DNA of 64,000 nucleotides. Origin: an uncultured Caldilineaceae bacterium (GTDB lineage: Bacteria; Chloroflexota; Anaerolineae; Caldilineales; Caldilineaceae). The stretch covers positions 2,998,722 through 3,062,721 of the forward strand of contig OY282381.1 in the NCBI GenBank assembly GCA_958295915.1, read 5' to 3'. How positions within the stretch are numbered: the first letter of the stretch is position 1; each line of letters begins with the position of its first letter. A model generated the notes under the pieces. That model was not told the DNA's origin. It searched no databases and was given only the letters and a program-made list of their open reading frames with translations. Below, one piece after another: positions 9,635-53,565 of the stretch. The translations under genes and the position numbers were made by a program.

Positions 9635-12481
9635 TTACGCCTGCCCCACGCGCATGACCTCGAAGATGCGCCGCTGGGTCGCCTGGGCCGTGGCAGCCAC
9701 GACAACGATGACCATCACAGCAATGAAAAGAATTGTGAGTTGGGTGATCTCTCCCTCAGCGATGACCGGCAGCATCGGTGGCAGGATGGCCTTGGAGTCG
9801 GCCGCCGCGCGGAAGAAGGGGGTGAAGAGAACGGAGACCCAGACGCCGATCAAGGCGCCGGCCGCAGTGCCGTAGATGACGAGGACCGCGTATTCGATGG
9901 CGAGCTGGATGATCAGTTGACGACGCAAGGCGCCAATCGCCCGCAATACACCGAACTGGTAGAAGCGCTCGCGCAGGGAAGCGTAACTGTGGACAAGAAA
10001 GGCCAGCACAGCCATCAAGGCGGCGGCCAAAAAGCCGACGCTCAGCGCGCCGAAGACTCCGACCCGCTCCAGGAGCGCCTTTTCCTGGGTAAGCGTATCG
10101 ACCACATCGTGCCAGCGGGGGGTCTCGAGCCCTCCGATCCGCAGCTTGCGACGCACTTCGTTTCCGCGATCATTGTCCGGCGAGCGCAGCCAGATTTCAT
10201 ACTCGTAGATGGCCCCGCCGATCAGATGCAGGTAGTCCAGATTGCCGATCAGAACGATCTCGTCTTCCTCGACAGTGGGAAAGTAGTCGTAGACGCCACT
10301 GATAACGAAATCTGTGCGCATACTGATCCCAGGTTCCAGAATCACCCACAGGTCCAACCGGTCACCAATGCGCAGTAGATGCTCGTTCAGAAACGAGCGC
10401 GAGGCCAACACCGCCTCGGGCGCGGCGGCCAGCCGGTTCATCAGGCCGCCCAGCGAATCATCGGCGAAGTCAGGGCGGAACCAGGCAACGGAAGCGAACT
10501 CAGCTCGGTCCACCCCGAGCATCCGCCCGCGCCCACGGGTGGACAGTCCTTCGATGCGGGCGCCATAGTTGCCCACGCGCACAGCGCGTTGCGCGTCGAA
10601 CCTCTCTGCAAACCAGGAAAGTTCAGGGATCCAGGCGCCGCCGGTCTTGCCCTCCGCCGCCGGCAGAAAACGAAAGTCACCGCCAGCCTGGTACTTGACG
10701 CGATCCACCAGCCATTCGTCCACGCTGGCGGCCAGGGAGTGGGTATAGATACCCAGCCCCAGGCAGATGATCACAAGCAACAGAGGGTTCAGATAACTAT
10801 GGCCCTGGCGGCCCAGCTGGCGTAGAGCCAGGTGAAAGACGGCGCCGGACAACAGGCTCGCCAGCCTATCCAGCAGATTCATCAACGGTGAAAACAGACG
10901 CATGATCAGCAGAGAGGCGGAGAGAATCACCAATGCCGGCGCCAGGATCAGTAGGGGGTCGTTGTACAGTTCGGAGGCGTTTTCCTGGGCCAGCAGGGCG
11001 AAAGCTTCTTGTTGATCCAGCTGTTGGTATGCGTAGACCGTCGGCACGATGAGTAGAAAGTCGAGATAGGCGCGCCGCCAGAAGGGGCCTTTGTCCGGAC
11101 GGGCGTAGGCAGTCTCATATTCGACGATGCTGGTGCGCGCGGCCACGACAGCCGGCATCAAGCGGGCGATGAACGCCAGCCCCAGGGCAGCGACGATCAG
11201 CCACAGATCAACACCCTGCAACGAGACAGGCAGAGGATCCCGCACAGTGAAATCGAGAAAACTGTCCGTGTAGCCCATGCCCCGGGCGATAAGCATGCCA
11301 GCGCCCAGGCCCAAGGGCACGCCCAGCAGAAAGAGCAGCCCCTCCTCCACAAACACCAACCACAGCACGCGTATGACGCCCGCGCCGCGGCTGACCAGCA
11401 CAGATGTCTCTCGCTGCTGGGAGCGGGCGATAATGCCGGAAATCAGCGCCAGAAAGTAGAGCAGAAAGCCAATGGCCGGCACATTCATACTGAGGAGCAG
11501 CACCGTCAGTGTCGTCTGACGCTGCACAAAATCCTTGAGGGGATCCAGAGGCGAAACGTCCAGATTTGCGCCTGGCAGGTATTTACCAATGATTGTCATG
11601 CCCTTTTCAAAACCGCGGGCGTAGGCGGCGGCGTAGGCCGGATTGAGGGTACGGTCGTCGAGGGAGATGCGCCAGCTGGCAAAGCGAGAGCCACCGGCCA
11701 CCAGGGGCTGTACCCATCGCACATAATCCTCCCGTTGCACGAAGAGAGCTTCTTTCATGGAGATGTCCGGTGGACGGAACCAGAAGGTATCATCCGGGTC
11801 GCGCGCCCGCCACAGGCCGATGATCTGCACGTTGATGCCGGGCTGGGCAGCAGTGGGCGCGACGCGAAACTGCTCACCGGGCAGGACACCCATTTCAGCG
11901 GCCAAGCTGTCGTGCATCAGCACAGACAGGAGATCCGTGTCGGGCGTATTCGCGTCTCTTTCGAGCGGAGGCGCATTCAACTCATCCCAGACACCACCGG
12001 CAGTGATCTCCAGGTGGGGCGCGACGTCGGCCAGATAGACCAGATCGACTTGTGTGAGAAAGTTGCTGTCTTCGCCGTAGCGGTCGTCGTTTTCCGGGGT
12101 CAGCATCATCATACTGCCGCTTTCCAGATGCACGCCGACCTCCTTGATGGGGAGAGCGATCTCCGTGGAAAGGGTGGCGGCGACGCTGCGCCCGGCGCGT
12201 TCGGCCGCGGGCACGTCCATCGGCTTGCGGGAGGAGGGGAAGAAGTAGACGCGCGTTGAGAACGGAGGACGCCCCGTGCGGGCGCTCAACGCGTCCAATT
12301 CTTCCTGCAGGATCACCCGATCCACAGCTTGGGCGAAGAAGCCGGCGCTGCTGAGCAGGCCGACAGTCAGCACGATCTGAAACAGCGCCAACAGGGTCAA
12401 CCCCAGATTGCCGGCCAGGCGTTTGCATGTGAAGATTGTCAACCCGCCGATGAGACGGGGGAACATAAGACTACGATTCAT
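9635..12481 (-). CDS. Large FtsX-type ABC permease
   Basis: A 948-residue protein with an N-terminal helix (about 20-50), a long extracytoplasmic region, three helices around 325-445 and a short linker with YLDFLLIVP. A second helix pair lies near 505-580, followed by a second extracytoplasmic region with PDFADDSLGGLMNRLAA, then a C-terminal FtsX domain of three helices (about 815-935). This is the duplicated FtsX layout of lipoprotein- or peptide-export permeases. It is a paralogue of the gene at 27316. No ABC ATPase lies nearby. Residues about 168-177 are encoded by an inserted element A. No clear ribosome-binding site precedes the ATG at 12481, so the start is uncertain. Substrate is unknown. 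Confidence 0.85.
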   Translation of the reverse strand: MNRSLMFPRLIGGLTIFTCKRLAGNLGLTLLALFQIVLTVGLLSSAGFFAQAVDRVILQEELDALSARTGRPPFSTRVYFFPSSRKPMDVPAAERAGRSVAATLSTEIALPIKEVGVHLESGSMMMLTPENDDRYGEDSNFLTQVDLVYLADVAPHLEITAGGVWDELNAPPLERDANTPDTDLLSVLMHDSLAAEMGVLPGEQFRVAPTAAQPGINVQIIGLWRARDPDDTFWFRPPDISMKEALFVQREDYVRWVQPLVAGGSRFASWRISLDDRTLNPAYAAAYARGFEKGMTIIGKYLPGANLDVSPLDPLKDFVQRQTTLTVLLLSMNVPAIGFLLYFLALISGIIARSQQRETSVLVSRGAGVIRVLWLVFVEEGLLFLLGVPLGLGAGMLIARGMGYTDSFLDFTVRDPLPVSLQGVDLWLIVAALGLAFIARLMPAVVAARTSIVEYETAYARPDKGPFWRRAYLDFLLIVPTVYAYQQLDQQEAFALLAQENASELYNDPLLILAPALVILSASLLIMRLFSPLMNLLDRLASLLSGAVFHLALRQLGRQGHSYLNPLLLVIICLGLGIYTHSLAASVDEWLVDRVKYQAGGDFRFLPAAEGKTGGAWIPELSWFAERFDAQRAVRVGNYGARIEGLSTRGRGRMLGVDRAEFASVAWFRPDFADDSLGGLMNRLAAAPEAVLASRSFLNEHLLRIGDRLDLWVILEPGISMRTDFVISGVYDYFPTVEEDEIVLIGNLDYLHLIGGAIYEYEIWLRSPDNDRGNEVRRKLRIGGLETPRWHDVVDTLTQEKALLERVGVFGALSVGFLAAALMAVLAFLVHSYASLRERFYQFGVLRAIGALRRQLIIQLAIEYAVLVIYGTAAGALIGVWVSVLFTPFFRAAADSKAILPPMLPVIAEGEITQLTILFIAVMVIVVVAATAQATQRRIFEVMRVGQA
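11951..11981 (-). repeat. Palindromic element A inside FtsX-type gene (copy 2)
   Basis: Coding-strand arms GCGCCTCC and AGAGACGC flank the GCTCGAA loop, with the GTTGAAT-type tail. It is translated in the frame LNAPPLERDA within the permease. No stop is created. Confidence 0.85.
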
Positions 12482-12518
12482 ATGATTATTGTGATCGAGA
12501 TGATCGCTAAAAATCTGT

Positions 12519-12580
12519 GGTCAGTTGCCAGTGGTTCGTGGCCGGCAACTGACCGCAGGGCACTGGCCACTGCAGTGAAG
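12519..12580. repeat. Intergenic repeat F, copy 2
   Basis: TCAGTTGCCAGTGG, then GGCAACTGACC, then GGCACTGGCCACTGCAGT. It lies between the GH4 stop and the start of the FtsX-type gene and can fold on itself. Confidence 0.6.
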
Positions 12581-12581
12581 G

Positions 12582-13982
12582 TCAGGCAAGCTCCTTGACA
12601 GGCGCCGGTTCGCGCAGCATCTCCTGGCCTGGGGCCCACATGTAATGCTCGTTGGCTCTTTCATTGCCATCCATCTCCATCAACCCTTCGAAGACAGTGA
12701 GCGCCTGGTTGTAGGAGTGGGTCTGGTCACAATCGAAAGCATTCAAAAGGAGGAGGGAGCGGTCGCCGGTGTGGAAGGCGAGCAGATCCCGTTCCATTTC
12801 CAACACCTCGGGCAGGATCTGAGTGTACAGGATTTTCGGCGGCAGAGGGTCCACGCGGAGGGGCTGAATGCCGCTCTTGTTGATGATGGCTGGAACTTCG
12901 ACGACTACATCGTCAGGCACGCCTGCCAGAGCGCCGCGGTTGGGCACGTTCACCTGAAACTGGCCCTGCTTGTCGTTCACCAGACTGTCGATGATCGGCG
13001 CCTGCTGCTCCTGGGTCTTCTCCGCGCCGAAAGCTTCGATCAAGCTGGTGGACGGGTCGTTGGTCAGTTCGGTCATTTGGGCGATGCGTTTCTCCAGATT
13101 TTCCACAAAATAGGGCCGGGCCAAGTGAGTGTCCGGCCCACCCCAAGGCTGGGGAAACCACCACATTTTGGCGTCGATATCTGTATGATACCACCATCCA
13201 CCTCGCCGGGGTGTGTCACCAATGGGCATGAGGCCAAACAGTCGGTACATGTGGATGGCGCCCCGGCTCATCTGAATGTCGTGCGTGCGCGAAGCTGTGT
13301 GCGTCTGCCAATAGCGCTCACCTTCCTCTGCGATCCATTTTTCCAGAATCGGATAGGCATCTTCGCCTTTGTAATAGAAATGGGTAAGCCAGATGTTGTG
13401 ATTGAGGCCCGGCGCCTGCCAGGTGATCTCATCCTCAGCGGTCAGACCGAGCGTCGCGGCAATTTGATAGACGCCATAGTGGCCATGACAGAGGCCGCAC
13501 ACCTTGATGCTCGACGCGCGCGTCATCATCGTGCAGCCTTCGTAGACCGGATTGCCCGATTGGATCAACCAGGCATCCGGGCAGATTTCTTCCATATCCC
13601 GCGTCACGCCGAGCATCAGATCGAGGTTGGTGTAATCGCTCTGACGCATACGCCCGCCATGATAGTAGCCGTGTTTCGCCATCAGCTCGCGGGCATCCCG
13701 CTGCTTCTGATGGCTGTTGACGGATGCCGTGTTGATGACGAAATCCACGTCTTGCAGGGCTTCCTGTCGGTCGGTGACGCTCTCGAAGCGCAGATCCGCG
13801 CCCAGTTCATTAGCATAGCGGGCGCCCAGCCTGTGGATCATATCCAGCCGGTCTGCGTCGATATCCATAAACGTGATGAGACTGCCGTTGAGAGATTCGG
13901 TCAGGCAGATGTCTTTTACGAGGCCAAGCGAAAACTGAGCGCTCCCAGCGCCGATGACGGCAAGTTTGATCGGGGTGGACAT
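12582..13982 (-). CDS. GH4 family glycosidase (alpha-galactosidase/alpha-glucosidase type)
   Basis: A 466-residue NAD- and Mn-dependent glycosidase. It has an N-terminal Rossmann motif, AVIGAGSAQFSLG (8-20), then the GH4 signature N144-P, C165-H166-G (GLCHGHYG) and H195 in PGLNHNIW. The Cys and His residues hold the catalytic metal. Enzymes of this family oxidise the sugar at C3 and eliminate the aglycone, and act in the cytoplasm. The start at 13982 has AAGGAG upstream; an upstream in-frame ATG at 14057 would add 25 unrelated residues. Related proteins are often annotated as alpha-galactosidase (melibiase), but specificity cannot be settled here. It probably takes part in sugar breakdown together with the island to the right. 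Confidence 0.9.
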   Translation of the reverse strand: MSTPIKLAVIGAGSAQFSLGLVKDICLTESLNGSLITFMDIDADRLDMIHRLGARYANELGADLRFESVTDRQEALQDVDFVINTASVNSHQKQRDARELMAKHGYYHGGRMRQSDYTNLDLMLGVTRDMEEICPDAWLIQSGNPVYEGCTMMTRASSIKVCGLCHGHYGVYQIAATLGLTAEDEITWQAPGLNHNIWLTHFYYKGEDAYPILEKWIAEEGERYWQTHTASRTHDIQMSRGAIHMYRLFGLMPIGDTPRRGGWWYHTDIDAKMWWFPQPWGGPDTHLARPYFVENLEKRIAQMTELTNDPSTSLIEAFGAEKTQEQQAPIIDSLVNDKQGQFQVNVPNRGALAGVPDDVVVEVPAIINKSGIQPLRVDPLPPKILYTQILPEVLEMERDLLAFHTGDRSLLLLNAFDCDQTHSYNQALTVFEGLMEMDGNERANEHYMWAPGQEMLREPAPVKELA

Positions 13983-14013
13983 ACAGACTCCTTGAAAGTA
14001 TGGGATGATTTGA

Positions 14014-14050
14014 AAAGAAACGCAATGTCGCCAGGACGCGGAGACGCACA
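14014..14050 (+). repeat. Intergenic repeat G, copy 2
   Basis: AAACGCAATGTCGCCAGGAC then GCGGAGACGCA, in the leader of the GH4 gene and inverted relative to the copies at 5747 and 47752. Confidence 0.55.
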
Positions 14051-14187
14051 AATTCAATTACGAATTGGACAGCTCTCAATTCCCAATTCAGAATTTCTTG
14101 GTTGCCACGATCTGGGCGTGTTCAGACAGGTAGGGCGCATCCTTGCGATCCGAGTGAGGCCCGTTCCTCCTTTCGATTGATAGGCCC

Positions 14188-14311
14188 TCGCGCCTCTTTG
14201 ACCTTTGATTCGCTTGATTTATAGGATAAAGATGATGAAGCAGTTATCACCTCAAGCATACAAATCAGATGAAGCAGTGGCCATACATCTGTGGTCAGAG
14301 GCGCATTCAAC
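14188..14311 (-). repeat. Element H inserted in the loop of an element A (A copy 3)
   Basis: On the plus strand an A left arm (CGCGCCTCTTT, 14189-14199) and an A right arm with tail (CAGAGGCGCATTCAAC, 14296-14311) are separated by about 95 bp instead of a 7-nt loop. Positions 14188-14273 form an 86-bp segment whose near-identical inverted copy (two mismatches) is at 32848-32933. This looks like a nested insertion. No gene is encoded here. Confidence 0.7.
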
Positions 14312-14332
14312 CTTGGTTCTGACGCATTGGCA

Positions 14333-15583
14333 TTAGACTGTTCTCAGATACTCACGAATCAGCAGGGCCGCGGTTGCGCCTTCGCCGGCGGCGCTGGCGA
14401 CCTGTTTTGTGCTGTCGGCTCGCGCGTCCCCGGCGGCAAAGATGCCGGGGACGCTCGTTTCCAGCGCGGTCGGCTCCCGTTGCGAGAAGAGATGCAGGCG
14501 TTCGTCCGGGTTGTGGATCAGTTTATGCCCGGTGTCGATGAAGCCCCATTCATTCAGGCGCACGCCGGCCCCCTCCAGGAATCCAGTATTCGGCTTGAGG
14601 CCAATAAAAACGAAAGCGCCGTCCACAGACATCCGCCACTCTGCATCGGTCTGGTTGTTCCTGAGACGCAATCCGTTCAAATGGGATCGTTCACCAAGGA
14701 ACTCCTGCGCCTCCGTATGCCATCGCACTTCGATCTTCGGCTCAGCCAGGACCGACTCCTGAATGATCTGACTGGCCCGCAATGCAGAGCCGCGGACCAG
14801 AATTGTAACCCGATCGGCGAATTTCGTCAGCAGCAGACTTTCTTCCGTAGCGCTGTTGCCGCCGCCGATCACGGCCACATGTTTGCCTTTGTAGAAAGGC
14901 CCATCACAGGTGGCGCAGAAATGAACGCCAGCCCCGATGTAGGCGCTTTCGCCGGGCACATTCAGCCGACGGTAGCGACTGCCGGTCGCGATCAGCACGG
15001 CGTGCGCGCTGTACTCATCACCGGCCGCCGTGTCCACGCAGTGATAGTTGTCGTGGCTGTGAACTCTTGCCACATCCTGAGCCTGGAGCAGTTCAACTCC
15101 GAACCGTTCGGCCTGCGCCCGCAGCCTTTGTGAAAACTCGCCGCCATCGACGCCGTCAGGAAAGCCAGGCAGGTTGTCCAGCTTTCCCGTGGCTGCGGCC
15201 TGTCCACCAAAGGCAGCGCGCTCGATGATGAGGGTATCGATGCCTTCGCGGGCCAAGTACAGGGCCGCTGTCAGGCCGGCAGGGCCGCCGCCGATACCGA
15301 TCACCGGGTAGTGATGTCTGCTGGCGGTGGTCTTCAATCCCAGTTTTTCGGCCAGTTCGGTGTTGCTCGGCTCAACGAGAATAGAACCGTCGCCAAAGAC
15401 GATCGTCGGAATGATGCGTTTGCCATTGTTCATTGCCATGACCTGCCGCTCAGCATCCGGATCCTCCTCGATGTTCACCCAGTTGTATGGGATCTGGCGC
15501 TCGCCGAGGAACTGTTTGCTGCGCCGGCAATCCGGACACCAGAAGGCGCCATAGACGACAATTTCAGGGGACGAATCGGGCAT
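14333..15583 (-). CDS. Glutaredoxin-like domain fused to thioredoxin reductase
   Basis: A 416-residue fusion. Residues 1-80 form a glutaredoxin/mycoredoxin-like domain with redox pair C16-P-D-C19 and IPTIVFGDG. Residues about 94-416 form a thioredoxin-reductase flavoprotein: FAD motif GIGGGPAG (96-103), active-site pair C223-A-T-C226, NADPH motif VIGGGNSATEE, and the terminal FAD phrase GIFAAGDAR. The ATG at 15583 has GGAGAAAG upstream. The reductase probably passes electrons from NADPH straight to its own attached redoxin domain, making a self-contained disulfide reductase. Such fusions are known in several bacterial groups. The gene is flanked by element H/A on one side and repeat F on the other. 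Confidence 0.93.
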   Translation of the reverse strand: MPDSSPEIVVYGAFWCPDCRRSKQFLGERQIPYNWVNIEEDPDAERQVMAMNNGKRIIPTIVFGDGSILVEPSNTELAEKLGLKTTASRHHYPVIGIGGGPAGLTAALYLAREGIDTLIIERAAFGGQAAATGKLDNLPGFPDGVDGGEFSQRLRAQAERFGVELLQAQDVARVHSHDNYHCVDTAAGDEYSAHAVLIATGSRYRRLNVPGESAYIGAGVHFCATCDGPFYKGKHVAVIGGGNSATEESLLLTKFADRVTILVRGSALRASQIIQESVLAEPKIEVRWHTEAQEFLGERSHLNGLRLRNNQTDAEWRMSVDGAFVFIGLKPNTGFLEGAGVRLNEWGFIDTGHKLIHNPDERLHLFSQREPTALETSVPGIFAAGDARADSTKQVASAAGEGATAALLIREYLRTV

Positions 15584-15600
15584 GAAGCTTTCTCCAAACT

Positions 15601-15720
15601 GCAATGGTTAGTGGCTAGTTGCCAATAACGGCGCTGATTGGGCAGGCGCAAGACCCGCTCCGATTGGAAACTGACTACTGGCAACTGATCTATGCCCCTG
15701 CACGAAAAACTAGAAACTAA
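15601..15720. repeat. Intergenic repeat F, copy 3
   Basis: Contains GGTTAGTGGCTAGTTGCCA, GGAAACTGACTACTGGCAA and AAAACTAGAAACTAA. It is the longest F copy and directly abuts the left end of the TnpB element at 15722. Confidence 0.6.
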
Positions 15721-15822
15721 AGGGAATTATATACTTAACTGCACAAGTAAGATTATCGTATGTTGAAGTTGCGTTGGGTGAGCATATGTGCTATTGTGGT
15801 ATGATGGGGCACTCAAAAAAAA

Positions 15823-15909
15823 TGGAACGCGGATGGAAATTCAGATCCCGCGCAGCCTTTCTTAAAGGCTGAGAAGTATGTACTTAACTGCGTACGTACA
15901 TAATTCCCA
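15823..15909 (+). repeat. Remnant right end of a second TnpB-type element
   Basis: GGAACGCGGATGGAAATTC, CCCGCGCAGCC, AAGGCTGAGAAGTATGTACTT and a final CATAATTCCC align in order with the last 80 bp of the full element (tnpB 3' end plus right terminus at 17087-17166). They differ at many bases. This segment would correspond to the guide-RNA-encoding 3' region of a related element. Confidence 0.6.
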
Positions 15910-15985
15910 ACAAGAGGAGCTGTTCCATAAGAAAAGCCCGTCAGTGCGGGAACACTACGGGCTGCGACCCACAAGGTGATGGCTT

Positions 15986-17130
15986 ATGGATACTCCCCAG
16001 ACTACCACAACTCACAAAACATATCAAGAACGAGGCTACTGTTCGCGCCCTGGCTATGCTCGCATCCGCGAGGCGCTGCGCGCTTGCTGCTGGCTCTACA
16101 ATCATTCCCTTGCACAGAGAAAGAATACCTATCTTGCCGATGGCAAAGGTATGACCTTGTATACGCAGATGAAGGGACTGACCCAACTGCGGAAGGAACA
16201 ACAGTTCTGGCGAGATATAGGATTACCAGTTGCCCGCGGGGTGTTAGTGAGAGTAGACCGGGCATTCAAGGCCTTCTTCCGTAGGGTGAAAGCTGGGGAA
16301 AAGCCGGGCTATCCACGCTTCAAGCCGCATCAGCGCTATCAGTGCCTTGAGTTGGCAAGCGTTACAGCGGGCATGGTGAAGGGCAATTGTATCAAGGTAA
16401 AAGGATTGCCCGCTATCAGGATACGCCCCCATCGTGAATTGTCAGAAGGTAGACAACTGAAAGCCTTGCGGCTCGTGATGCACGGACGTATTCTGACAGT
16501 TGACCTGGTATATGAAGAGGAACAGAACATCCTGGCGCCTGTGGATACTGTGGTAGGTATCGATGTGGGCGTACACGAACGCATGACCTTCAGCGATGGG
16601 AAGACAGTTTCCCGGCGTGTACTTGACAGAAGCAGGGAAACAAGCTTGCAACAGGCGATTTCCACAAAGAAGAAAGGAAGTAACAGACGGAGAAAGGCAA
16701 TAGCTACGTATGCCCGCGAGAAACGTAGGAATACAGTACGCAATCGCAATGAATGCCATCAGTTGACCACTGCTATCGTGCGAAACTATCAGAAGATAGC
16801 GATCGAAAAGCTGGCCATACAGAACATGTCTCGACGTGGTGGCAATCGTAAACGTGGCTTGAATCGCAGTATGATGGAACAGACTTGGGGCATACTATTT
16901 CAACAGTTGCGCTACAAGGCAGAATGGGCCGGTAGACAATTCATTGCAGTGGACCCCAGGAACACTCCAAGACCTGTTCCCATTGTGGTGAAGTAAGGAA
17001 AGAGAAGCTGGCGGACTATCGGACCTTTGTATGCCTCTCGTGCCGGCATACGGAAGACCGGGATCTGAACGCCGCTAAAAATATTCAGGAACGCGGGTGG
17101 GAATTTCCCGCACAGCCGAAAGCTGGCTGA
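15986..17130 (+). pseudogene. tnpB: RNA-guided nuclease TnpB, frameshifted
   Basis: The first 336 codons carry the TnpB helical/wedge region (RPGYARIREALRACCWLYNH), RuvC-I GIDVG with D193, and RuvC-II AIEKL with E274. Near 16969 the frame is lost within RNTPRPVP. One base further, the sequence continues as TCSHCGEVRKEK, then CLSCRHTEDRDLNAAKNIQ, to a stop at 17128-17130. That is the four-cysteine zinc finger and RuvC-III aspartate. A single-base deletion has thus separated the last 50 residues. Without them the protein should be inactive, unless ribosomal frameshifting occurs. Intact TnpB is a DNA nuclease guided by an RNA from the element's right end. A sequencing error is an alternative. 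Confidence 0.85.
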
Positions 17131-17168
17131 GAAAGATATACTTGTGCAGTTAAGTATATAATTCCCAT

Positions 17169-21573: not shown

Positions 21574-21595
21574 TGTATTGGGTCTCCTTATTGCA

Positions 21596-21665
21596 ATGGC
21601 CAGTCACCAGTGGCGAGTGGCCAATAACGGCATTGGCCATTGGAAACTGACCACCGGCGTGTGAT
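21596..21665. repeat. Intergenic repeat F, copy 4
   Basis: AATGGCCAGTCACCAGTGG, GGCATTGGCCATTGGAAACT, GACCACCGGC. It lies between the divergent lyase and sulfatase genes, beside a B copy. Confidence 0.6.
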
Positions 21666-21670
21666 CTATG

Positions 21671-21697
21671 CCCGCCCCCCATGGCGCGCGCAATACA
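21671..21697 (+). repeat. Palindromic element B, intergenic copy 2 (degenerate)
   Basis: CGCCCCCCATGGCGCGCG then CAATACAAC. The loop is shortened and the tail conserved. It lies upstream of the sulfatase promoter region. Confidence 0.6.
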
Positions 21698-21847
21698 ACA
21701 AATCCTACCAGCAGAGTGACGCCATTGCAAGGTTGTATTCAAGAGTGTTTGCATGGTAATGGGTCTTCTGGTTGCGCAGATGGCGGCATGCGCTATACTT
21801 CATCTGCTGACTTGGCGTCGCCATGCCACCACAACGGAGAGCCCTTC

Positions 21848-23251
21848 ATGCCACCCAATATTCTTTTTCTGATGAGCGACGAGCACCGCGCCGACATCAC
21901 CGGCTACGAGGGCGACCCGACCGTGCGCACGCCCGTGCTGGACGAGCTAGCGCGCACGGGTGTCGTCTTTCGCAACGCCTATACGCCCTCGCCGGTCTGT
22001 ATTCCGGGCCGGCAGGCGCTGATGTCCGGCCAGCTTCCCCGCACCTGCGGCTGCGAACTTTTCGCCCAGGATCTGCCGCCCGGCCACATGACCTTCGCCC
22101 GCCGCTTCAGCCAATACGCCTATTACACCGTCGCCGCCGGCAAACTTCACCACACAGGGCTGGATCAGATGCAGGGCTGGAGCCAACGCGTCGGCTCGGC
22201 GATTCAGATGGCTCCCCACTTCATCGAAGAGCGGGACGATGCTTCCTTTGCCCGCTACACGAGAGAAAGGTCTGCTGGAAAGAGGCGCGAGTTGGCCAGC
22301 GTTAAGTGGAGCGATACAAAGGAAGTGCTGCGGGCGGGCGTCGGGCATTCGCCCCATATCATTCAGGACGAGTACGCGTGTACAGGCGCGCGTGACTTCA
22401 TCCAACAGTACTTCACCGACCCCTACTACGACCGCCAGCAGCCGGAACGTCCGCTGCTGCTGAAAGTGAGCCTGAACCAGCCCCACTATCCATACCTCAC
22501 GACAGAAGAAAAGTTCACCTACTATCTGAACCGGGTGGAACCGTTCCGCGACGAACCGGTTTTCGATCATCCCTTCCTGAGCCAGCGCCAGGTGCGGCCG
22601 GGGGTGGATGCCTCGGCCAGGGAACTGCGCCGGGCCGTCGCCGCCTACTACGGCATGATCGAGACGATCGACGAAATGTACGGCTCCCTGCTCGCCGCGC
22701 TGGAGCAGGTGAACCAGGATCTTGACGACTGGATCATCATCTACACCAGCGATCACGGGGAGATGCTGGGCGAGCACGGCATCTGGGAAAAACAGAAATT
22801 CTTCGAGGCCAGCGCGCGCGTGCCGCTGATCATCCGTTGGCCCAAATCATTCGACGGTGGTCGGATCGTTCAGGAAAACGTCAATCTGTGCGATCTGTTT
22901 GCCACCCTCTGCGAGTTATGTGAAATTCCGGCGCCGGCAGATCTGGACAGCCGCAGTCTTGCACCTCTGCTCCACGGCAATGGGGAAGGCTGGCGCAACG
23001 AAAGCGTCAGTCAGTTCGGCGCGCGCAATCTGATGATCAAATGGGATGGGTTGAAATACCAGTACTACGGCGAGGAGATGCCGGAGGCGCTGTTCGATCT
23101 GGAGAGAGATCCGTCCGAACGGATGAACTTTATCGATGATCCCCGCTATGCCGACATCCTGGCCAAGTTCCGCTGTCGGCGGTTCGAATTGGGTTTCGGT
23201 CCCGGCGCGCAGGATGGATATGTGAATGCAGGGTATCAGGGCAGGCGATGA
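21848..23251 (+). CDS. Sulfatase (Cys-type, arylsulfatase family)
   Basis: A 467-residue sulfatase without an export signal. N-terminal PNILFLMSDEHRADITGYEG gives the first metal-binding acid. C51-I-P-G-R is the motif whose cysteine is converted to formylglycine by an activating enzyme, and YTSDHGEMLGEHGIWEK gives the second metal/substrate site. The enzyme would remove sulfate esters from sugars or other organics in the cytoplasm. The ATG at 21848 has GGAGAG upstream; the open frame extends further 5' but through a B repeat. Codons near 22263-22291 (RERSAGKRREL) resemble a worn element A. It lies directly upstream of the first sugar ABC locus. Confidence 0.92.
   Translation: MPPNILFLMSDEHRADITGYEGDPTVRTPVLDELARTGVVFRNAYTPSPVCIPGRQALMSGQLPRTCGCELFAQDLPPGHMTFARRFSQYAYYTVAAGKLHHTGLDQMQGWSQRVGSAIQMAPHFIEERDDASFARYTRERSAGKRRELASVKWSDTKEVLRAGVGHSPHIIQDEYACTGARDFIQQYFTDPYYDRQQPERPLLLKVSLNQPHYPYLTTEEKFTYYLNRVEPFRDEPVFDHPFLSQRQVRPGVDASARELRRAVAAYYGMIETIDEMYGSLLAALEQVNQDLDDWIIIYTSDHGEMLGEHGIWEKQKFFEASARVPLIIRWPKSFDGGRIVQENVNLCDLFATLCELCEIPAPADLDSRSLAPLLHGNGEGWRNESVSQFGARNLMIKWDGLKYQYYGEEMPEALFDLERDPSERMNFIDDPRYADILAKFRCRRFELGFGPGAQDGYVNAGYQGRR
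22263..22291 (+). repeat. Possible degenerate element A in sulfatase gene (copy 6)
   Basis: TCTGCTGGAAAGAGGCGCGA keeps the loop and right arm of element A but has lost the left arm pairing. It is translated as RSAGKRRE, one change from the VECASARKRR frame. It may be an old copy or chance. Confidence 0.35.
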
Positions 23252-23282
23252 CCGCAGAAGAGATCGCGCAGAGCGGTGAGAT

Positions 23283-23312
23283 GTCGCGCCCCACAGTGGC
23301 GGGCGCCACAAC
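23283..23312 (+). repeat. Palindromic element B, intergenic copy 3
   Basis: GTCGCGCCCCACAGTGGCGG then GCGCCACAACA, 32 bp past the sulfatase stop. The 23252-23760 gap holds three B copies and no recognisable gene. Confidence 0.75.
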
Positions 23313-23576
23313 ACTCTGAAACAGCATCGGCAGACCAACCATATTTGACACTTCGTCTCTTCACATTTACAATTGCGGCCCGGCTGGACACTATTGACAG
23401 AACGTGGTGAAATACTGCAGGCTCGCAAGTTGCAGTCGCTCCCCGAATCTCCCATCGGCTATACTCTGGAGGTTCTCCACAGTTCTGGTCATAGCCAACT
23501 CTGGCTGTGTTTCAGGGACTGCCGGTTCTCCCGACGGGCCGCCGCTGGCATTGGGCGAAGCGCGCCTTTCTCCCCC

Positions 23577-23606
23577 CATCGCGCGTCACAGTGGCGCGCA
23601 ATACGA
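23577..23606 (+). repeat. Palindromic element B, intergenic copy 4
   Basis: CATCGCGCGTCACAGTGGCG then CGCAATACG. One arm carries a substitution and the tail is intact. Confidence 0.75.
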
Positions 23607-23703
23607 ATGCTTATAACCAGACTATGATCTCTTTCCGATCCATTCTGATGCCGTATCGACATTGCAAAAGTCAAGGTGGAGGTTAGGCGATCGTTTTTCC
23701 CGC

Positions 23704-23732
23704 GTCGCGCCCCACAATGGCGCGCAATACAA
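23704..23732 (+). repeat. Palindromic element B, intergenic copy 5
   Basis: GTCGCGCCCCACAATGGCGC then GCAATACAA, 28 bp before the start codon of the substrate-binding protein gene, so within its transcript leader. Confidence 0.85.
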
Positions 23733-23760
23733 TCCTTTCATTCAGCCCAAGGAGATAAGC

Positions 23761-25227
23761 ATGAAGAAGCTCAACAGACGCGCATTCCTTCAATCGATGG
23801 GATTGGCCAGTGCCGGTATAACGCTAGCGGCCTGCGCGTCCCCTGTCGCGCTCCAGGAAGCTGCCGGTGAGGAGATGGCCGGTGAACCCGGCATGACCGG
23901 CGCCCTGGAAATCTGGGTCCAGTTCTATACACCCACCGAAAGCATGGTGCAGGGCCCCAACAACCCCGTCCCCCACAACATGATCCAGATTCTGGCTGAC
24001 GAGTACATGGAGGCGCACCCTGGAGCCACGATCGAAATCATCAAGAAACCGTCCAATCTGGCGAGCCACGAGTGGATTGTCACCCAGCAGGTCGGTGGCA
24101 CGATCCCGCATATCGTCTGGACCCATTCCTTCTGGGTCCAGGATGAGATCGACAAGAACTGGTGGATACCTCTGGATCCCTTCTTCGAACAGCCCAACCC
24201 ATACGTGGCTGCCGGGGACCCAGGCAGCGAGCGTTGGTTGGATCAGTTCTATGAGATTCCCACCGAGGCCAAACGCGGCCCGGACGGCAAGCACTATGTC
24301 GTGCCCATCGACCTGGTGACGACGTTCTTCTTCTACAACAAGACCATCTTCGACGAAGCCGGCCTGCAGCCGCCGGCCACGTACGGGGAGTGGATCGAAA
24401 TTCAGGAAGCGCTGCAAGCTGCGGATGTGATACCCAATGCCAGACTTGCCTGGTATCAGAGTCAGATCGGCGCGATGGTCTATGCGGGCAAGGATGAAGC
24501 GATCAATGTCGATGGCGGCGTGGCCTCATTGGAGGAAGTCGCCTGTGCCATACAGAGCGGCCTGTACCGGGCTTCCAACCCTGAATATGGAGAATGGTTC
24601 CGGCTCGTCAAGCAGCTCATTCCCCACCTGGCTCCGGATTGGGCGGCCGAGGGCACCGACTTCAACCGCAAGTTCCTCAACAAAGAGGTGGCCGTGTATG
24701 AGGACGGCAGTTGGCGTTTCGGCAGACTCAAGGCCGATCCGCTGGTTGATTTTGAATGGGGCAGCTTCTACGCGCCCACAGTTACCGAGTCCGATTCGCC
24801 CTTTGCCACGGGGAGATCGGCGCCGCCGATCGGGGGCGCCACCGCGGCCCAATGGGCATTGGCAACCAAGGCGGAAGGGGATGGCGTGGTGCCGTTGGCC
24901 ATCGACTTCGTGCGGTACGTCACCGCGCCCCAAAACGCGGGGCGGATGATCGAAGAAGCGGGCCAGTTCCTGCCCAATATCAAAGGCGTGGACGTCAATC
25001 CCGACTTGGCTGAACCGCTGCGGGCCATCACCGAGGGGCTGGGTGAAGCCGGTATGGTCACCTATCCCGATAAGATCGGCACCGAGCAACGGGAGAAGAT
25101 CGACAACGCCTGGACCGACTTCAAACTGGATGTGATCAACCAGGAGGAAGCGGCGGCGCAGATCGACGAGCTGTTGCTTGAATACGCCGAGGATGCCATC
25201 GCCAAGAACGAATGGCAGTGCGGGTAA
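23761..25227 (+). CDS. ABC sugar-transport substrate-binding lipoprotein
   Basis: A 488-residue family 1 extracellular solute-binding protein. The N-terminus has a twin-arginine motif (RRAFLQS, 6-12) followed by a lipobox ending LAAC with C25, so it is probably Tat-exported and lipid-anchored outside the cell. FYNKTIFDEAGLQPPATYGEW is the hallmark of this fold, and EVAVYEDGSWRFG lies in the C-lobe. It would bind an oligosaccharide and deliver it to the two permeases encoded downstream. AAGGAGA precedes the ATG. A palindromic F repeat separates it from the permeases. No ATPase gene is present in the locus. Confidence 0.93.
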   Translation: MKKLNRRAFLQSMGLASAGITLAACASPVALQEAAGEEMAGEPGMTGALEIWVQFYTPTESMVQGPNNPVPHNMIQILADEYMEAHPGATIEIIKKPSNLASHEWIVTQQVGGTIPHIVWTHSFWVQDEIDKNWWIPLDPFFEQPNPYVAAGDPGSERWLDQFYEIPTEAKRGPDGKHYVVPIDLVTTFFFYNKTIFDEAGLQPPATYGEWIEIQEALQAADVIPNARLAWYQSQIGAMVYAGKDEAINVDGGVASLEEVACAIQSGLYRASNPEYGEWFRLVKQLIPHLAPDWAAEGTDFNRKFLNKEVAVYEDGSWRFGRLKADPLVDFEWGSFYAPTVTESDSPFATGRSAPPIGGATAAQWALATKAEGDGVVPLAIDFVRYVTAPQNAGRMIEEAGQFLPNIKGVDVNPDLAEPLRAITEGLGEAGMVTYPDKIGTEQREKIDNAWTDFKLDVINQEEAAAQIDELLLEYAEDAIAKNEWQCG

Positions 25228-25237
25228 CCGTCTGAAC

Positions 25238-25303
25238 TGCAGTGGCCAGTGGCTAGTAACTGTAATGTCTGGCGACTGACTACTGGCAACTGGCCACTGG
25301 TGT
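25238..25303. repeat. Intergenic repeat F, copy 5 (hairpin between binding protein and permease)
   Basis: CAGTGGCCAGTGG at the left pairs with CTGGCCACTG at the right, about 40 bases apart. This large hairpin sits between the highly expressed binding-protein gene and the permease genes, where processing or partial termination would lower permease expression. Confidence 0.65.
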
Positions 25304-25320
25304 TAACCGAGCGGGGCACT

Positions 25321-26286
25321 ATGACCACGGATGAGATGCGCGCAACCGCGCCAAACGCCACGCAAGTCAACCCAACGATTCCCGAGGAACGGGTGTCGGG
25401 CCTGTGGGAGCGCGTCTATCGCTATCGCTTCGTATACGTAATGCTTGTCCCCACCTTCGTGTTGCTGTTCACCTTTAACTACTATCCGGCCTTCATGGGA
25501 CTGTACCGCGCCTTCTTCAAATGGGACATCGGACTACAGCCAGAGTTTCTGGGACTGGGCAACTTCCAGAAGCTCTTTCTTGAGGATGATGTCTTCCTCA
25601 AGTCGCTGCGCCATGTGAGCATCCTGACTTCGTGGCGGGTGATCAGCGCTGTCACCTTTCCCTTTATCGTAGCCGAACTCATCTTCAACCTGCGCAACCA
25701 CATCCATAAGTACACCTACCGTGTCCTGATCATCTTGCCGGCTGTGGTGCCCGGCATTGTCAATCTGCTGCTCTGGCAGTTCATCTATGACGGCACACAT
25801 GGGTTGCTGAATGCCTTCCTGGAAGGAATTGGCCTGGAAAATCTGCAGCAGCCGTGGCTGGGAAGCCCCAAGACATCTCTCTACGCGGTCACGTTCATGG
25901 GGTTTCCCTGGGTGGGTGGCGTTACGGTTCTGATCTACCTCGCGGGTCTGCAGGGCATCTCTGATGAAATTATCGATAGCTCCCTGGTAGACGGGTGCTC
26001 CGGCCTGCGCCGCATCTTTGCCATCGACATTCCCCTGATCCTGGGCCAGTTCAAGCTCATCATTGTCCTGGCCGTCATTGGTGGCCTGCAGGGGTGGGTA
26101 GCCATTTTCGTCATGACGGCCGGTGGGCCGGGCACCGCGAGTATGGTGCCCGGGCTCTGGATGTACAACAACGCCTTTCTGTGGAATAAGATGGGATACG
26201 CTTCCGCCATCGGCATGTTCCTGTTCTTGCTGATCCTCAGCCTGACTATCTTGAACATCAAATTCATGAAGACAAGTGATGTGTAA
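25321..26286 (+). CDS. ABC sugar permease, MalF/UgpA type
   Basis: A 321-residue inner-membrane protein with six predicted helices from about residue 40. The cytoplasmic coupling loop reads IIDSSLVDGCSGLRRIFAIDIPLI in parts, an EAA-type motif (DG followed by IPL) that docks on the ATPase. It pairs with the permease encoded 55 bp downstream to form the import channel. The ATG at 25321 is the likely start, though only GAGCGGGG lies upstream; an upstream in-frame ATG runs through repeat F. The cognate ATPase is missing here and is probably a shared MsmK-like subunit encoded elsewhere. Confidence 0.92.
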   Translation: MTTDEMRATAPNATQVNPTIPEERVSGLWERVYRYRFVYVMLVPTFVLLFTFNYYPAFMGLYRAFFKWDIGLQPEFLGLGNFQKLFLEDDVFLKSLRHVSILTSWRVISAVTFPFIVAELIFNLRNHIHKYTYRVLIILPAVVPGIVNLLLWQFIYDGTHGLLNAFLEGIGLENLQQPWLGSPKTSLYAVTFMGFPWVGGVTVLIYLAGLQGISDEIIDSSLVDGCSGLRRIFAIDIPLILGQFKLIIVLAVIGGLQGWVAIFVMTAGGPGTASMVPGLWMYNNAFLWNKMGYASAIGMFLFLLILSLTILNIKFMKTSDV

Positions 26287-26304
26287 GCGCGCGCGAATCG
26301 TAGA

Positions 26305-26323
26305 GGCAACCTTGTGGTTGCCC
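26305..26323. repeat. Family C palindrome, intact copy
   Basis: GGCAACC, loop TTGT, GGTTGCC: a perfect 7-bp stem with a 4-nt loop, between the two permease genes. Other copies are at 2221 and 38372. Confidence 0.6.
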
Positions 26324-26341
26324 AGACAGGAGAGCTGAGCG

Positions 26342-27223
26342 ATGGCAGTGATCGAGGGACAATCGCGACCAATCCAACGTCTGCAGTTGGCCGATAGTTG
26401 GCGCCGCGCCTGGCGCTCAGGAGATTGGTGGCGCCAGCTCGTTCTACTTGCCTTTCTGTTCTTCATGTTCTTGCCCTTCATCATCACCTTCATCATCTCG
26501 TTCAAGGATATTCCCCAGTTCGACCATGCCCCTTTCCGTGTCACGTTCCCGCTGCACCCCGTAAACTACGTGGATGCCTGGCGTATCGTCTCACGCTACA
26601 TTTATAACAGCCTTATCGCCAGCAGCGCGTCGGTGATCGGCATGGTGATTCTGGCGGCGATTGCGGCGTGGGCGTTTGCCCGTTACCCGTTTCCGGGCCG
26701 GGAGATCTTCTTCTTCGGGGTTCTGGCTTTGTTGATGGTTCCAGGTGAGCTTACGCTGATTCCGGCGTTCCTTCTGGTTAAGACTCTGGGCTTGCTCAAT
26801 ACCCGTTGGGTTCTCATCGCTCCCTATATCGCGGGTGGCCAGGTTTTCGCTATCTTTATCCTGCGTCAGTTCTTCGAAGCTTTGCCAGGTGAGATGTTCG
26901 AAGCGGCGCGCATCGACGGCGCCAACGAATGGCAGGTGTTTCGGCACATCGGCATACCTCTATCCCAATCCATTCTGGGTGTGGTCGCCATCATGCACGT
27001 CCTCAGCACCTGGAATGACATTATCTGGCCTTTGGTGACCCTCTCCAGTGACAAGCTCATGACCCTGACCATTGGGCTTTACGCCTTTCGCACCGCCTAT
27101 TACACGATCTGGGGGCCGCTGATGGCGGGCTATGTGATTGCTTCCATTCCTCTTATCATCCTGTTCGCCTTCACCAGCCGCCTCTTTGTCGAAGGGCTCA
27201 GCTCCGGCGCCATCAAGATGTAG
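26342..27223 (+). CDS. ABC sugar permease, MalG/UgpE type
   Basis: A 293-residue permease with six predicted helices. The EAA loop is clear: EMFEAARIDGANEWQVF, then IGIPLS. It ends with LFVEGLSSGAIKM, the typical C-terminus of MalG-like subunits (VEGLTxGAVK). CAGGAGAG precedes the ATG. It works as the second half of the import channel with the gene before it. The following gene is a large FtsX-type permease that is not part of the sugar importer. Confidence 0.94.
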   Translation: MAVIEGQSRPIQRLQLADSWRRAWRSGDWWRQLVLLAFLFFMFLPFIITFIISFKDIPQFDHAPFRVTFPLHPVNYVDAWRIVSRYIYNSLIASSASVIGMVILAAIAAWAFARYPFPGREIFFFGVLALLMVPGELTLIPAFLLVKTLGLLNTRWVLIAPYIAGGQVFAIFILRQFFEALPGEMFEAARIDGANEWQVFRHIGIPLSQSILGVVAIMHVLSTWNDIIWPLVTLSSDKLMTLTIGLYAFRTAYYTIWGPLMAGYVIASIPLIILFAFTSRLFVEGLSSGAIKM

Positions 27224-27226
27224 GTG

Positions 27227-27310
27227 GCAACTGCAGTGGCCAGTCACCAGTGGCCAGGAACGGCACGGGCCGCTGGAAACTGCAGTGACTCGAAACGAAA
27301 AACCAGAAAC
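27227..27310. repeat. Intergenic repeat F, copy 6
   Basis: GCAACTGCAGTGGCCAGTC, CCAGTGGCCAGGAACGGC, GGAAACTGCAGTGACTCG, AAACGAAAAACCAGAAAC. It fills the gap between the sugar permease and the FtsX-type gene. Confidence 0.6.
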
Positions 27311-27315
27311 TTCCC

Positions 27316-30300
27316 TTGCGTCCTATCCACAGCTATCTTGGTTTATGGCGGATCGCGCTGCGGCGTTTCAGCTCTGAGCCGATTCTGACATTGTGTCTGC
27401 TGTTCGGCTGGATCGTTGTGGTCGCTCTGGCTGCCGCGCCGTCCATGTATACCGACGCCGCCAACCGGTCTCTGCTTCAGCACGAATTGCAGACCATGCG
27501 GAATCGTTCTGCCTTCGCCGTCGCGCCCCACAGTGGCGCGCAATACAAATTTTTCTATCACTATGTGCGCGGCTCCAGCGGCGGCGCGCAGTGGCAGGAC
27601 TATCTGGCGCTGGATCAGTATATGCAGAGCGAGTATGCCCAAGACCTGGGGCTTCCCTACCGATCGGGCATGCACTATGTCAAGAGCGATCTTTTCCAGG
27701 TTTTTCCTCTGCGCGGCGGCAGATACGCAGTGCGCGATAAGCCCCTGCTACGGGGATACCTGGGCTTTATCGACAGACTGGATGAGTACGTTTCTGTCGT
27801 CGAGGGCAGCGCGCCCCTTGCGAGCAGAAGCGCATCGCAACGTCGCGCCCCACAACAATCTCCTGGGCCGGACAGCGAGAATGCGGATCGCGACGGCGTG
27901 GTCGATGTCCTGGTCAGCCAGGAGCTTGCTGTCGAGTCAGGGCTGCAAGTGGGAGAGCAGTATATCCTCTTCGATCCAAGCGCCCGCTCGCCGAGCGGGC
28001 TTCGCCAAAGGTTGGAGGTGCCGGTGCGCGTGGCTGGCATCTGGCAGGCATCCCATGCTGAGCTCTGGCATATCCCCCCCTCCTCGTTCGCCAATGTATT
28101 CCTCGTATCCGCAGAGACCTATATCAGCGATATCGGCAGTAGGGCGCCCCACGCTCTTTCCGACGCAGGTTGGTATACGGTGGTCGACGGCGACGGCGTA
28201 CGCGCGGAAGATGTAGACGCGTTCCTGCGCAGGGTGACCTATGCCGACAGACGAATCAAGACCATGATTCCGACTTCCTATCTCGAGCTCTCACCCGTCT
28301 CGGCGCTGAAGCGATACCAGCTCGTGGCCTCGGCCCAGGCTGTCCTGCTACTTCTCTTCAGCATCCCCATCCTGGGGCTTGTGCTCTACTTTATCGTTCT
28401 TGTGGCTGACAGCGCGGTGAAGCGCCAACAGATTGAGATATCCATCTTGAAGAGCCGGGGGGCAACCACTGGTCAGGTGTTCTCGATCTATCTGCTACAG
28501 GGCGCTACCCTTGGGGTCGTTGCCCTGGCAATCGGTCCTCTGGTGGGGCGGATGGTGGCGCAGATCATCGGGGGGACGCACTACGCGTCTCTTGCGAGCA
28601 GAGGCCCATTCAACGTCGCGCCCCACAGTGGCGCGCAACACAACACTTTCCTGACGTTTGGCGCGCAGATGCCCCTGCAGATAGAGACCACGACAACCAG
28701 CCTGACGTATACATTCGTCGCGCTCGGTTTTGCCCTACTCGCTACGGTACTGCCTGCCATGGGGGCCGCGCGTCTGGCCATTGTCGAAGCCAAGCAGGAA
28801 ATAAGCCGCAGGCGGCATCGCTCTTTCTGGGAACGCGCCCACCTCGATTTCCTGCTGTTGGGCATAGCGAGCTATGGCTATTATCTGCTCAAGACCCAGG
28901 GCCGTATTGCCTTTTTGCAGGCCAATGTCCCCACTGATCCGCTCGACAATCCTCTCCTGTTTCTCGCGCCGGCCCTCTTTATTCTGGCGCTTGCGCTCGT
29001 TTCTGTCCGTCTTTTCCCCCTGATCGCGGCCGGCTTGAGCCTGCTATGGGCGCGTCTGGGGGGCATTTCAATGCTCTTGGCGTTCTACAATCTCGCGCGC
29101 ACGGGCAGGATATACACCAGCTTGCTTCTCCTGCTGATACTGACCACAAGCTTGGGTACGTTTACCGCATCTATGGCGCGCACTCTGGATGCCAATCTGG
29201 TGGCCCGCGTCTTCTACCAGATCGGGGCCGATGTTGCCCTGACCGAAGGGGCGGCTTTGCGTACGATATCCTCCAACGCCGACGGGCCTGGCGCTGCCGA
29301 AGAGAACTTCGTCTGGATAACTTTGCCGGTGGATGAACATCGGCGCGCCCCTGGCGTACGGGCCGCGACCCGCATCGGAGAGTACCCTGTTTCCACGCGG
29401 GTCGGCGACAGGCTGGTCAGCGGGGTTCTCTTCGGTATTGATCGCAGCCACTTCCCTGAGGTCGCTTACTTTCGGCCGGACTTCGCTGACGATTCCTTGG
29501 GCGCGCTGATGAACGCCTTGGCGCTCGAGTATGGGGGCGTCCTTGTCAGCAGTTCAATGCTGCAGGCGCTGGGCTTGCAGGTGGGCGACTCGATTGCCCT
29601 GCGCGGCCTTATACCCACCAGCAATGCAGCGTTCACGTTTCGGATTGTGGGCGCAATGGAGCTCTTTCCCACTGCCTACCCGCAAGACGGCGCCTTTTTT
29701 GTGGCCAACCTGAACTACATCTTTTCGCTGTTGGGGCACGAGGTACCCTACAGGGTATGGCTGGCCACGGATGAAGCGGTCGATCCGGATCTGTTGACCA
29801 GTTCATTAGACGATATCGGCTACAAGGTGCTGGCCATCAAAGACGCATACGCGGAGCTGGCGGAAGCGCAGGCGCGACCTCAACGCGTCGGGCTGTTCGG
29901 TTTCCTTTCTGTGGGCTTCATTGCCGTCGCCATGCTCAGTATGCTGGCGCTCATGATCTATTCGGCCCTGTCGTTCCGTCAACGATTCATTCAGCTCGGC
30001 ATTCTGCGCGCGCTGGGCTTGTCGACAAGGCAACTCATCGTCTCTCTCGGCAGTGAACAGGTGACGGTAACGATCGCAGGCATCGCTCTGGGCAGCTACC
30101 TGGGGCTGCTGAGCAGCCATCTATTCATCCCATTCTTGCAGATAGGATACGAACAGACCGATCTGATCCCGCCCTTCATTGTGCATATCGCTTGGGATGA
30201 TGTGATCGTACTGACGCTGGCCATGCTCATCATGGCGCTGGCGGCCGCGTGTGGCACGATCGGGTTGCTTGTTCGGATGAAGACTTTCCAGGCCGTGAAA

Positions 30301-30321
30301 CTGGGCGAAGCGCTTGCCTGA
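27316..30321 (+). CDS. Large FtsX-type ABC permease with palindromic-element insertions
   Basis: A 1001-residue paralogue of the gene at 9635-12481. It has an N-terminal helix, long extracytoplasmic region, helices around 340-480, the shared phrase HLDFLLLG, further helices near 535-620, PDFADDSLGALMNALA, and a C-terminal FtsX domain (about 860-990). It is longer than its paralogue mainly because of translated elements: B at residues 69-78 (VAPHSGAQYK), A plus a short B at 166-181, and A plus B at 423-443 (SLASRGPFN then VAPHSGAQ). The start is a TTG with no strong ribosome-binding site, so it is uncertain. No ATPase is nearby; the export substrate is unknown. Confidence 0.85.
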   Translation: MRPIHSYLGLWRIALRRFSSEPILTLCLLFGWIVVVALAAAPSMYTDAANRSLLQHELQTMRNRSAFAVAPHSGAQYKFFYHYVRGSSGGAQWQDYLALDQYMQSEYAQDLGLPYRSGMHYVKSDLFQVFPLRGGRYAVRDKPLLRGYLGFIDRLDEYVSVVEGSAPLASRSASQRRAPQQSPGPDSENADRDGVVDVLVSQELAVESGLQVGEQYILFDPSARSPSGLRQRLEVPVRVAGIWQASHAELWHIPPSSFANVFLVSAETYISDIGSRAPHALSDAGWYTVVDGDGVRAEDVDAFLRRVTYADRRIKTMIPTSYLELSPVSALKRYQLVASAQAVLLLLFSIPILGLVLYFIVLVADSAVKRQQIEISILKSRGATTGQVFSIYLLQGATLGVVALAIGPLVGRMVAQIIGGTHYASLASRGPFNVAPHSGAQHNTFLTFGAQMPLQIETTTTSLTYTFVALGFALLATVLPAMGAARLAIVEAKQEISRRRHRSFWERAHLDFLLLGIASYGYYLLKTQGRIAFLQANVPTDPLDNPLLFLAPALFILALALVSVRLFPLIAAGLSLLWARLGGISMLLAFYNLARTGRIYTSLLLLLILTTSLGTFTASMARTLDANLVARVFYQIGADVALTEGAALRTISSNADGPGAAEENFVWITLPVDEHRRAPGVRAATRIGEYPVSTRVGDRLVSGVLFGIDRSHFPEVAYFRPDFADDSLGALMNALALEYGGVLVSSSMLQALGLQVGDSIALRGLIPTSNAAFTFRIVGAMELFPTAYPQDGAFFVANLNYIFSLLGHEVPYRVWLATDEAVDPDLLTSSLDDIGYKVLAIKDAYAELAEAQARPQRVGLFGFLSVGFIAVAMLSMLALMIYSALSFRQRFIQLGILRALGLSTRQLIVSLGSEQVTVTIAGIALGSYLGLLSSHLFIPFLQIGYEQTDLIPPFIVHIAWDDVIVLTLAMLIMALAAACGTIGLLVRMKTFQAVKLGEALA
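27519..27547 (+). repeat. Palindromic element B inside FtsX-type gene (copy 6)
   Basis: GTCGCGCCCCACAGTGGCGC then GCAATACAA, a consensus copy read in the frame VAPHSGAQY. The paralogue lacks these residues. Confidence 0.9.
27811..27859 (+). repeat. Compound A plus truncated B in FtsX-type gene (A copy 7, B copy 7)
   Basis: GCGCCCCTTGCGAGCA then GAAGCGCATCGCAAC (A, worn), followed directly by GTCGCGCCCCACAA (B left half). It is read as APLASRSASQRRAPQQ. It occupies the same extracytoplasmic loop as the A copy in the paralogue at 11951. Confidence 0.8.
28584..28643 (+). repeat. Compound A plus B in FtsX-type gene (A copy 8, B copy 8)
   Basis: CGCGTCTCTTGCGAGCAG then AGGCCCATTCAAC (A), immediately followed by GTCGCGCCCCACAGTGGCGC then GCAACACAA (B). 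The 60 bp add 20 codons with no stop. The paralogue has no residues here. Confidence 0.88.
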
Positions 30322-45037: not shown

Positions 45038-45073
45038 ACGAGGTTTCCTTTCCACAATCATCGAAATCTTCAG

Positions 45074-45135
45074 TAGCCACTGGTCAGTAGCCAGTCACTG
45101 CAGTCCACTGGCGCTAGCCACTGGTCACTATGGAG
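45074..45135. repeat. Intergenic repeat F, copy 8
   Basis: AGCCACTGGTCAGTAGCCAG, CACTGCAGTCCACTGGCGC, TAGCCACTGGTCACTATGG. It lies between the aldo/keto reductase stop and the dioxygenase start. Confidence 0.6.
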
Positions 45136-53372: not shown

Positions 53373-53513
53373 AAAGGCGGCTTCCAACGCCGCGCCTATG
53401 CCTGCAAGAGGTATCTTGCGGACAACGCCGCCGCCTTCTGAGCTTGTAAGCGGCAGCTTTTAGGCATTCTTGCGCGCCAATCGGTATAATACTGAAGAGA
53501 TGACGACCTGATT

Positions 53514-53565
53514 TTTAGTTTCGAGTAACTGCAGTTCACTGACTACTAAAAACTGACGAAACCAC
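53514..53565. repeat. Intergenic repeat F, copy 9
   Basis: TTTTTAGTTTCGAGTAACTG, CAGTTCACTGACTACTAAAA, ACTGACGAAACC, before the methyltransferase gene. It shares the GTTTCGAGTAACTGCAGTTC phrase with the copy at 55430. Confidence 0.6.

Follow-up and report, generated by a model that had tools for sequence, protein, structure and literature searches.

Elements A and B are very probably (we put this at about 0.85) a pair of related families of tiny hairpin elements, mobile but non-autonomous, that have been amplified in one Caldilineaceae species and that sit passively in two of its permeases. They were studied in a window of 64,000 nucleotides, the whole stretch of DNA that was analysed, which spans positions 2998722–3062721 of the 5.06-Mb genome of a Caldilineaceae bacterium. 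The genome is assembled as one contig and is 99% complete. The comparison set comprised 17 genomes of the genus, including 16 congeneric species; the congeners are named Caldilineaceae MAGs and, from their bin names, appear to come from marine sponges. None of the literature searched describes repeats of this kind in Caldilineaceae.

Empty sites in two permease genes

Permease a (9635–12481, minus strand, 948 amino acids) contains one A element, and permease b (27316–30321, plus strand, 1,001 amino acids) contains four element copies at three sites. Both are FtsX/MacB-type (type VII), YbbP-like ABC permeases, as judged from Pfam matches to FtsX (PF02687; 9.5e-13 for a and 2.2e-17 for b) and from the closest PDB fold of permease b, E. 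coli YbbAP (9ge6, E=7e-21). BLASTP aligns the two over nearly their full length with 29% identity (E=3.5e-105), and their Smith–Waterman score of 970 compares with 50±7 for shuffled sequences, in agreement with the proposal of the earlier note that they are full-length paralogues. The same note took the paralogues as proof of insertion. Insertion is indeed proven, but by congeneric orthologues rather than by paralogues that share 29% identity, and the empty sites of the orthologues are the stronger evidence. Permease a has orthologues in 15 congeners (84–87% identical), while 13 congeners have full-length copies of permease b (about 77–80% identical), most with open frames of 977–980 amino acids. 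Codon alignments with these genes show that the element insertions are absent from 15 of 15 orthologues of a and 13 of 13 orthologues of b.

In permease a, element A lies in the sense orientation at 11951–11981 (minus strand), where it is read as LNAPPLERDA at about residues 168–177. The net insertion relative to the orthologues is 21 nt or 7 codons (11954–11974), which is less than the 11 codons of a full A element, so some residues must have been lost or replaced. The first site in permease b is an exact 30-nt, 10-codon insertion of element B (27520–27549, with the GTTG tag on the minus strand; residues 69–78, VAPHSGAQYK). At this position relatives read TTC TCA TTC and permease b reads TTC GCC, the ten codons and then TTT; a topology taken from helix order puts the insert where the extracytoplasmic domain begins. 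At the middle site, an A element antisense to the gene (27810–27841, minus strand, APLASRSASQ) abuts a truncated B element that has lost one hairpin arm (27842–27858, minus strand, GTCGCGCCCCACAACAA), and together they account for a 48-nt, 16-codon insertion (27817–27864, residues 168–183). The third site is a head-to-tail composite of A (28584–28614, SLASRGPFN) and B (28615–28644, VAPHSGAQHN), both on the minus strand, within a block of 63 nt or 21 codons (28585–28647, residues 424–444) that corresponds in the model, again with topology from helix order, to a disordered outer loop between TM3 and TM4. These results confirm the positions that had been given for the copies in both genes, the opposite orientations of A (sense in a, antisense in b) and the extra residues of permease b at B and A+B, which amount to net gains of 10 and 21 codons over the orthologues. 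The inventory for permease b was correct for B and A+B but had missed the truncated B beside A at the 48-nt site, with which permease b has A+B pairs at two sites.

The A-bearing loops of the two permeases are equivalent in AlphaFold models, each of them predicted to link the same pair of strands in the first extracytoplasmic domain (placed outside the membrane from helix order). Low-confidence loops are modelled at residues 167–181 of permease a, between strands 157–162 and 184–190, and at residues 170–192 of permease b, between strands 159–164 and 196–201. The interval between a conserved glycine (G162 in a, G164 in b) and a conserved valine (V187 in a, V198 in b) is 25 residues in permease a and 34 in b, compared with 18 in the element-free orthologues. 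Mapping the insertion sites on predicted models, which the earlier note had suggested as a check, thus puts the A copies in equivalent loops. That note had also named two outcomes that would count against it, A copies at non-equivalent positions and loops of similar length in homologues without elements; instead, the positions agree at the level of the loop, and the element-free loops are shorter by 7 and 16 residues.

Structure, distribution and behaviour in genes

In both families a GTTG tag at the 5′ end is followed, after a short spacer, by a GC-rich hairpin. The consensus is GTTGAATGCGCCTCTGCTCGAAAGAGGCGCG for A (about 31–33 nt) and GTTGTATTGCGCGCCACTGTRGGGCGCGAC for B (30 nt), with exact ends uncertain by 1–3 nt, and hairpins folded as single-strand DNA give z-scores of −2.8 to −4.8. 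With up to two mismatches allowed, the whole genome contains 279 copies of A and 458 of B, and a reversed control pattern has zero copies in this genome. Each congener has 0–2 copies of A at the same threshold and up to 3 when three mismatches are allowed, some of these A-like copies having the same tag and compensated stems. Element B is essentially restricted to this species, and none of 395 further genomes in the class has more than one copy (two mismatches or fewer). Viral contigs contained no exact core of A or B.

A map of 1.2 Mb of the host genome, in regions picked partly for density, contains 173 A and 242 B copies. Only 23% of these 415 copies lie in genes, as delimited by a simple codon-usage gene caller, versus 80% coding sequence (binomial p=6e-138). 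Among intergenic regions, 35 are divergent and 15 convergent. For a replication-strand bias the GC skew is too weak, and no clear replichore pattern was seen in the orientation of the copies. The flank on the GTTG (left) side is purine-rich and AAAG-like (74–75% purine versus 48–50% at control positions), and no enrichment of duplicated flanks, as expected of target-site duplication, was detected. Neighbouring copies of the same family are in the same orientation in about 89 cases and inverted in none, with periods of about 29–33 nt. Three tandem B copies with a 30-nt period occur in the window at 40904–41005, and bigger arrays elsewhere in the genome are always head-to-tail. At genome positions 1803735–1822504, about eight related membrane-protein genes stand in tandem, and most of them have B copies or B arrays immediately before the start codon.

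Other repeats were also noted. The window contains a further interspersed and apparently intergenic repeat, with words such as AACTGCAGTGGCCAGTGGCTAGT and TTTCGAGTAACTGCAGTTCACTGACTACT, at 15597–15687, 21589–21663, 25235–25292, 27229–27292, 45066–45116, 53512–53547 and 55431–55466. In-gene tandem repeats at 55560–55971 (21/33-nt periods) and 37710–38051 (51-nt period) are unrelated to A and B. The congener G015 has a different, longer high-copy repeat, AGGGGGGCGTTGCGGGGGCGCAGCCCCTGCACAAGGGAGG, of which there are about 91 copies in 1.2 Mb and in which GTTG adjoins a GC-rich palindrome.

In-frame insertions across the genome were measured against 1.2 Mb of G015, and the sizes come from genic copies, the congeners being too divergent between genes. 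Single B insertions add 10 codons in most clean cases, A insertions add 11 codons in three cases and A+B insertions add 21. The net gain at several A insertions is non-canonical, at 7, 10 or 16 codons. Of the 31 genic cases for which a homologue was available, a single in-frame alignment spans 30 (one of them a native look-alike with no gain in length), and the last is a weak, doubtful match; no clear frameshifting insertion was found among them. The genic copies keep the frame because the number of nucleotides in an element is divisible by three and the consensus is open in at least five of the six reading frames. In different proteins A and B are read in many frames and in both orientations, which argues against a peptide function. 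In the congener G012 an A-like element lies, apparently as an in-frame insertion, in a 629-residue open frame that we take to resemble a glycosyltransferase.

The earlier note had also concluded that one extracytoplasmic loop is a repeated target. The equivalence of the loop in both proteins stands, but targeting is not supported. A true hotspot, in which two independent insertions chose the loop by target sequence or structure, would account for A in opposite orientations in equivalent loops of both paralogues, for three insertion sites within the 3 kb of permease b and for a B insertion in a further FtsX paralogue (G000 4876166–4879132). Nevertheless, the three sites of permease b are in three different places, the B insertion of the third paralogue is elsewhere in the protein, and copies of both families are spread genome-wide and mainly between genes, with a weak purine-rich preference at the flank and no loop-specific site. 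The loop is hypervariable in sequence among congeners and hence permissive, and by length alone one of the three sites in permease b would fall within a given 18-residue loop with a probability of about 5%, or more if insertions can occur only in tolerant surface loops. With such a loop and three insertions in one gene the coincidence is unremarkable, and a hotspot is improbable. It is more improbable still that the inserted peptides act as motifs with a function, spread by gene conversion and kept by selection: VAPHSGAQ does recur at two sites in permease b, yet the diversity with which identical DNA is read among proteins contradicts a shared motif, most copies are intergenic, and the insertions are in low-confidence, variable loops. 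That variability among congeners might also suggest ordinary indels, or an artefact of assembly or alignment. We give this almost no credence, given that the inserted sequences agree with the consensus of high-copy repeats, that gains of exactly 10, 11 and 21 codons recur in unrelated genes, that the inserts are in no congener, and that the genome is a single, nearly complete contig. The permease inserts are very probably passive additions that the outer loops tolerate, neither functional peptides nor the product of directed insertion in one loop.

Relation to known palindromic repeats and the search for a mover

Intragenic palindromes are established for the RPE of Rickettsia and the palindromic repeats of Wolbachia (PMC2229807). 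The parts of that source that draw on Ogata 2000 and Abergel 2006 describe RPE as in frame in protein genes as well as intergenic, and as tolerated by functional proteins. A and B are likewise palindromic and found in frame in genes and between them, and as in-frame insertions that are absent from orthologues they behave like RPE. The comparison is by description, and the elements differ in that RPE are described as 105–146 nt long and alphaproteobacterial, whereas A and B are 30–33 nt, GTTG-tagged and from Chloroflexota. RPE-4 and RPE-6 are CGTC-type REPs, REPs inside ORFs are known, and GTAG repeats have been reported in Chloroflexi (PMC3733652).

In layout A and B resemble the GTAG and CGTC REPs (Di Nocera 2013, PMC3733652), which are also hairpins of 20–40 nt with a one-sided unpaired tag and a high copy number, mostly intergenic with some copies intragenic and in frame. 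CGTC-type REPs have no dedicated transposase, and none was found for A and B. The size and copy number of both families are those of GTAG repeats, but the consensus tag is GTTG in both. The other strand of B begins with GTC and has a preceding C in about 25% of copies, and A has no CGTC tag at all. The Y1_Tnp profile (PF01797), typical of RAYT, had no match in any of the 17 genomes of the genus, although control genomes matched. Failing on the GTAG and CGTC tags and on RAYT, A and B are not filed as REP members, though they work like REP and RPE palindromes. It is possible, if doubtful, that they are standard GTAG/RAYT REPs whose Y1 transposase was lost after the burst. The unit of 30–33 nt, the tetranucleotide tag on one side of a hairpin, the high copy number and the lack of target duplication would all fit (compare PMC3733652), but the tag is not GTAG, a Y1_Tnp gene is missing from all 17 genomes, the exclusively head-to-tail arrays are unlike the alternating REPs of BIMEs, and the excess in divergent over convergent regions differs from the unidirectional and convergent regions that REPs are said to favour (PMC3733652).

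MITEs, defined by terminal inverted repeats and target-site duplication, are not matched by a one-sided hairpin without enrichment of duplicated flanks. The SDR of cyanobacteria, described by Elhai in 2008, are reportedly mobile repeats of 20–30 nt with no known transposase, found through the empty sites of relatives. A and B can be likened to them, by description only, in size, in having no known transposase and in the empty sites of relatives. With IS200/IS605 elements they share the absence of target duplication and a subterminal hairpin that has a conserved flank on one side, and they differ from them in that no Y1 transposase was found and the TnpB of the host belongs to a different element bounded by terminal inverted repeats.

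TnpB (PF07282) has 36 matches in this genome versus 0–4 in congeners, and this burst was considered as the mover of A and B. It was rejected as such, the TnpB copies sitting in elements with 26-nt terminal inverted repeats and target duplications of about 8 bp, unlike A and B. In the window, a TnpB gene (15986–16996) lies in an element at 15716–17166 with terminal inverted repeats GGGAATTATATACTTAACTGCACAAG...; the duplications are present at several of its sister copies elsewhere, and the element showed no further transposase gene. A Y2_Tnp profile (PF04986) gave no match, its positive control being silent as well.

Insertion, unit size, the absence of detectable duplication, the flank preference and the species-specific burst are direct observations. 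By analogy with REPs and IS200/IS605 (PMC3733652, PMC8266576), we infer that A and B were mobilized in trans as single-stranded hairpins. The elements, amplified as non-autonomous units in one species, would move in this form under the action of a tag-reading nuclease or transposase that is not a recognizable Y1/RAYT protein. The inserted unit, as observed, is about 30 nt for B (10 codons) and 33 nt for A (11 codons); it lies beside a purine-rich flank on the GTTG side and leaves no detectable target-site duplication. Adjacent copies could have arisen by head-to-tail duplication or by insertion next to an existing copy. A more speculative and rather unlikely proposal is that hairpins with a GTTG tag make up another REP-like superfamily, with a mover other than Y1/RAYT and a unit fixed at a codon multiple of 30 or 33 nt.

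Reading frames with inserted selfish DNA have been described mainly in Rickettsia and Wolbachia. The present case is an instance of this known but rare phenomenon, selfish DNA in protein genes, in a new lineage. It combines a species-specific burst with empty sites in 16 congeneric species, so that the length, frame and orientation of insertions, and how well structures tolerate them, can be measured at dozens of sites together, and it raises the question of what moves REP-like elements without RAYT. If the hairpins do represent a GTTG superfamily, proteins in this lineage would be continually seeded with cassettes of 10–11 residues.
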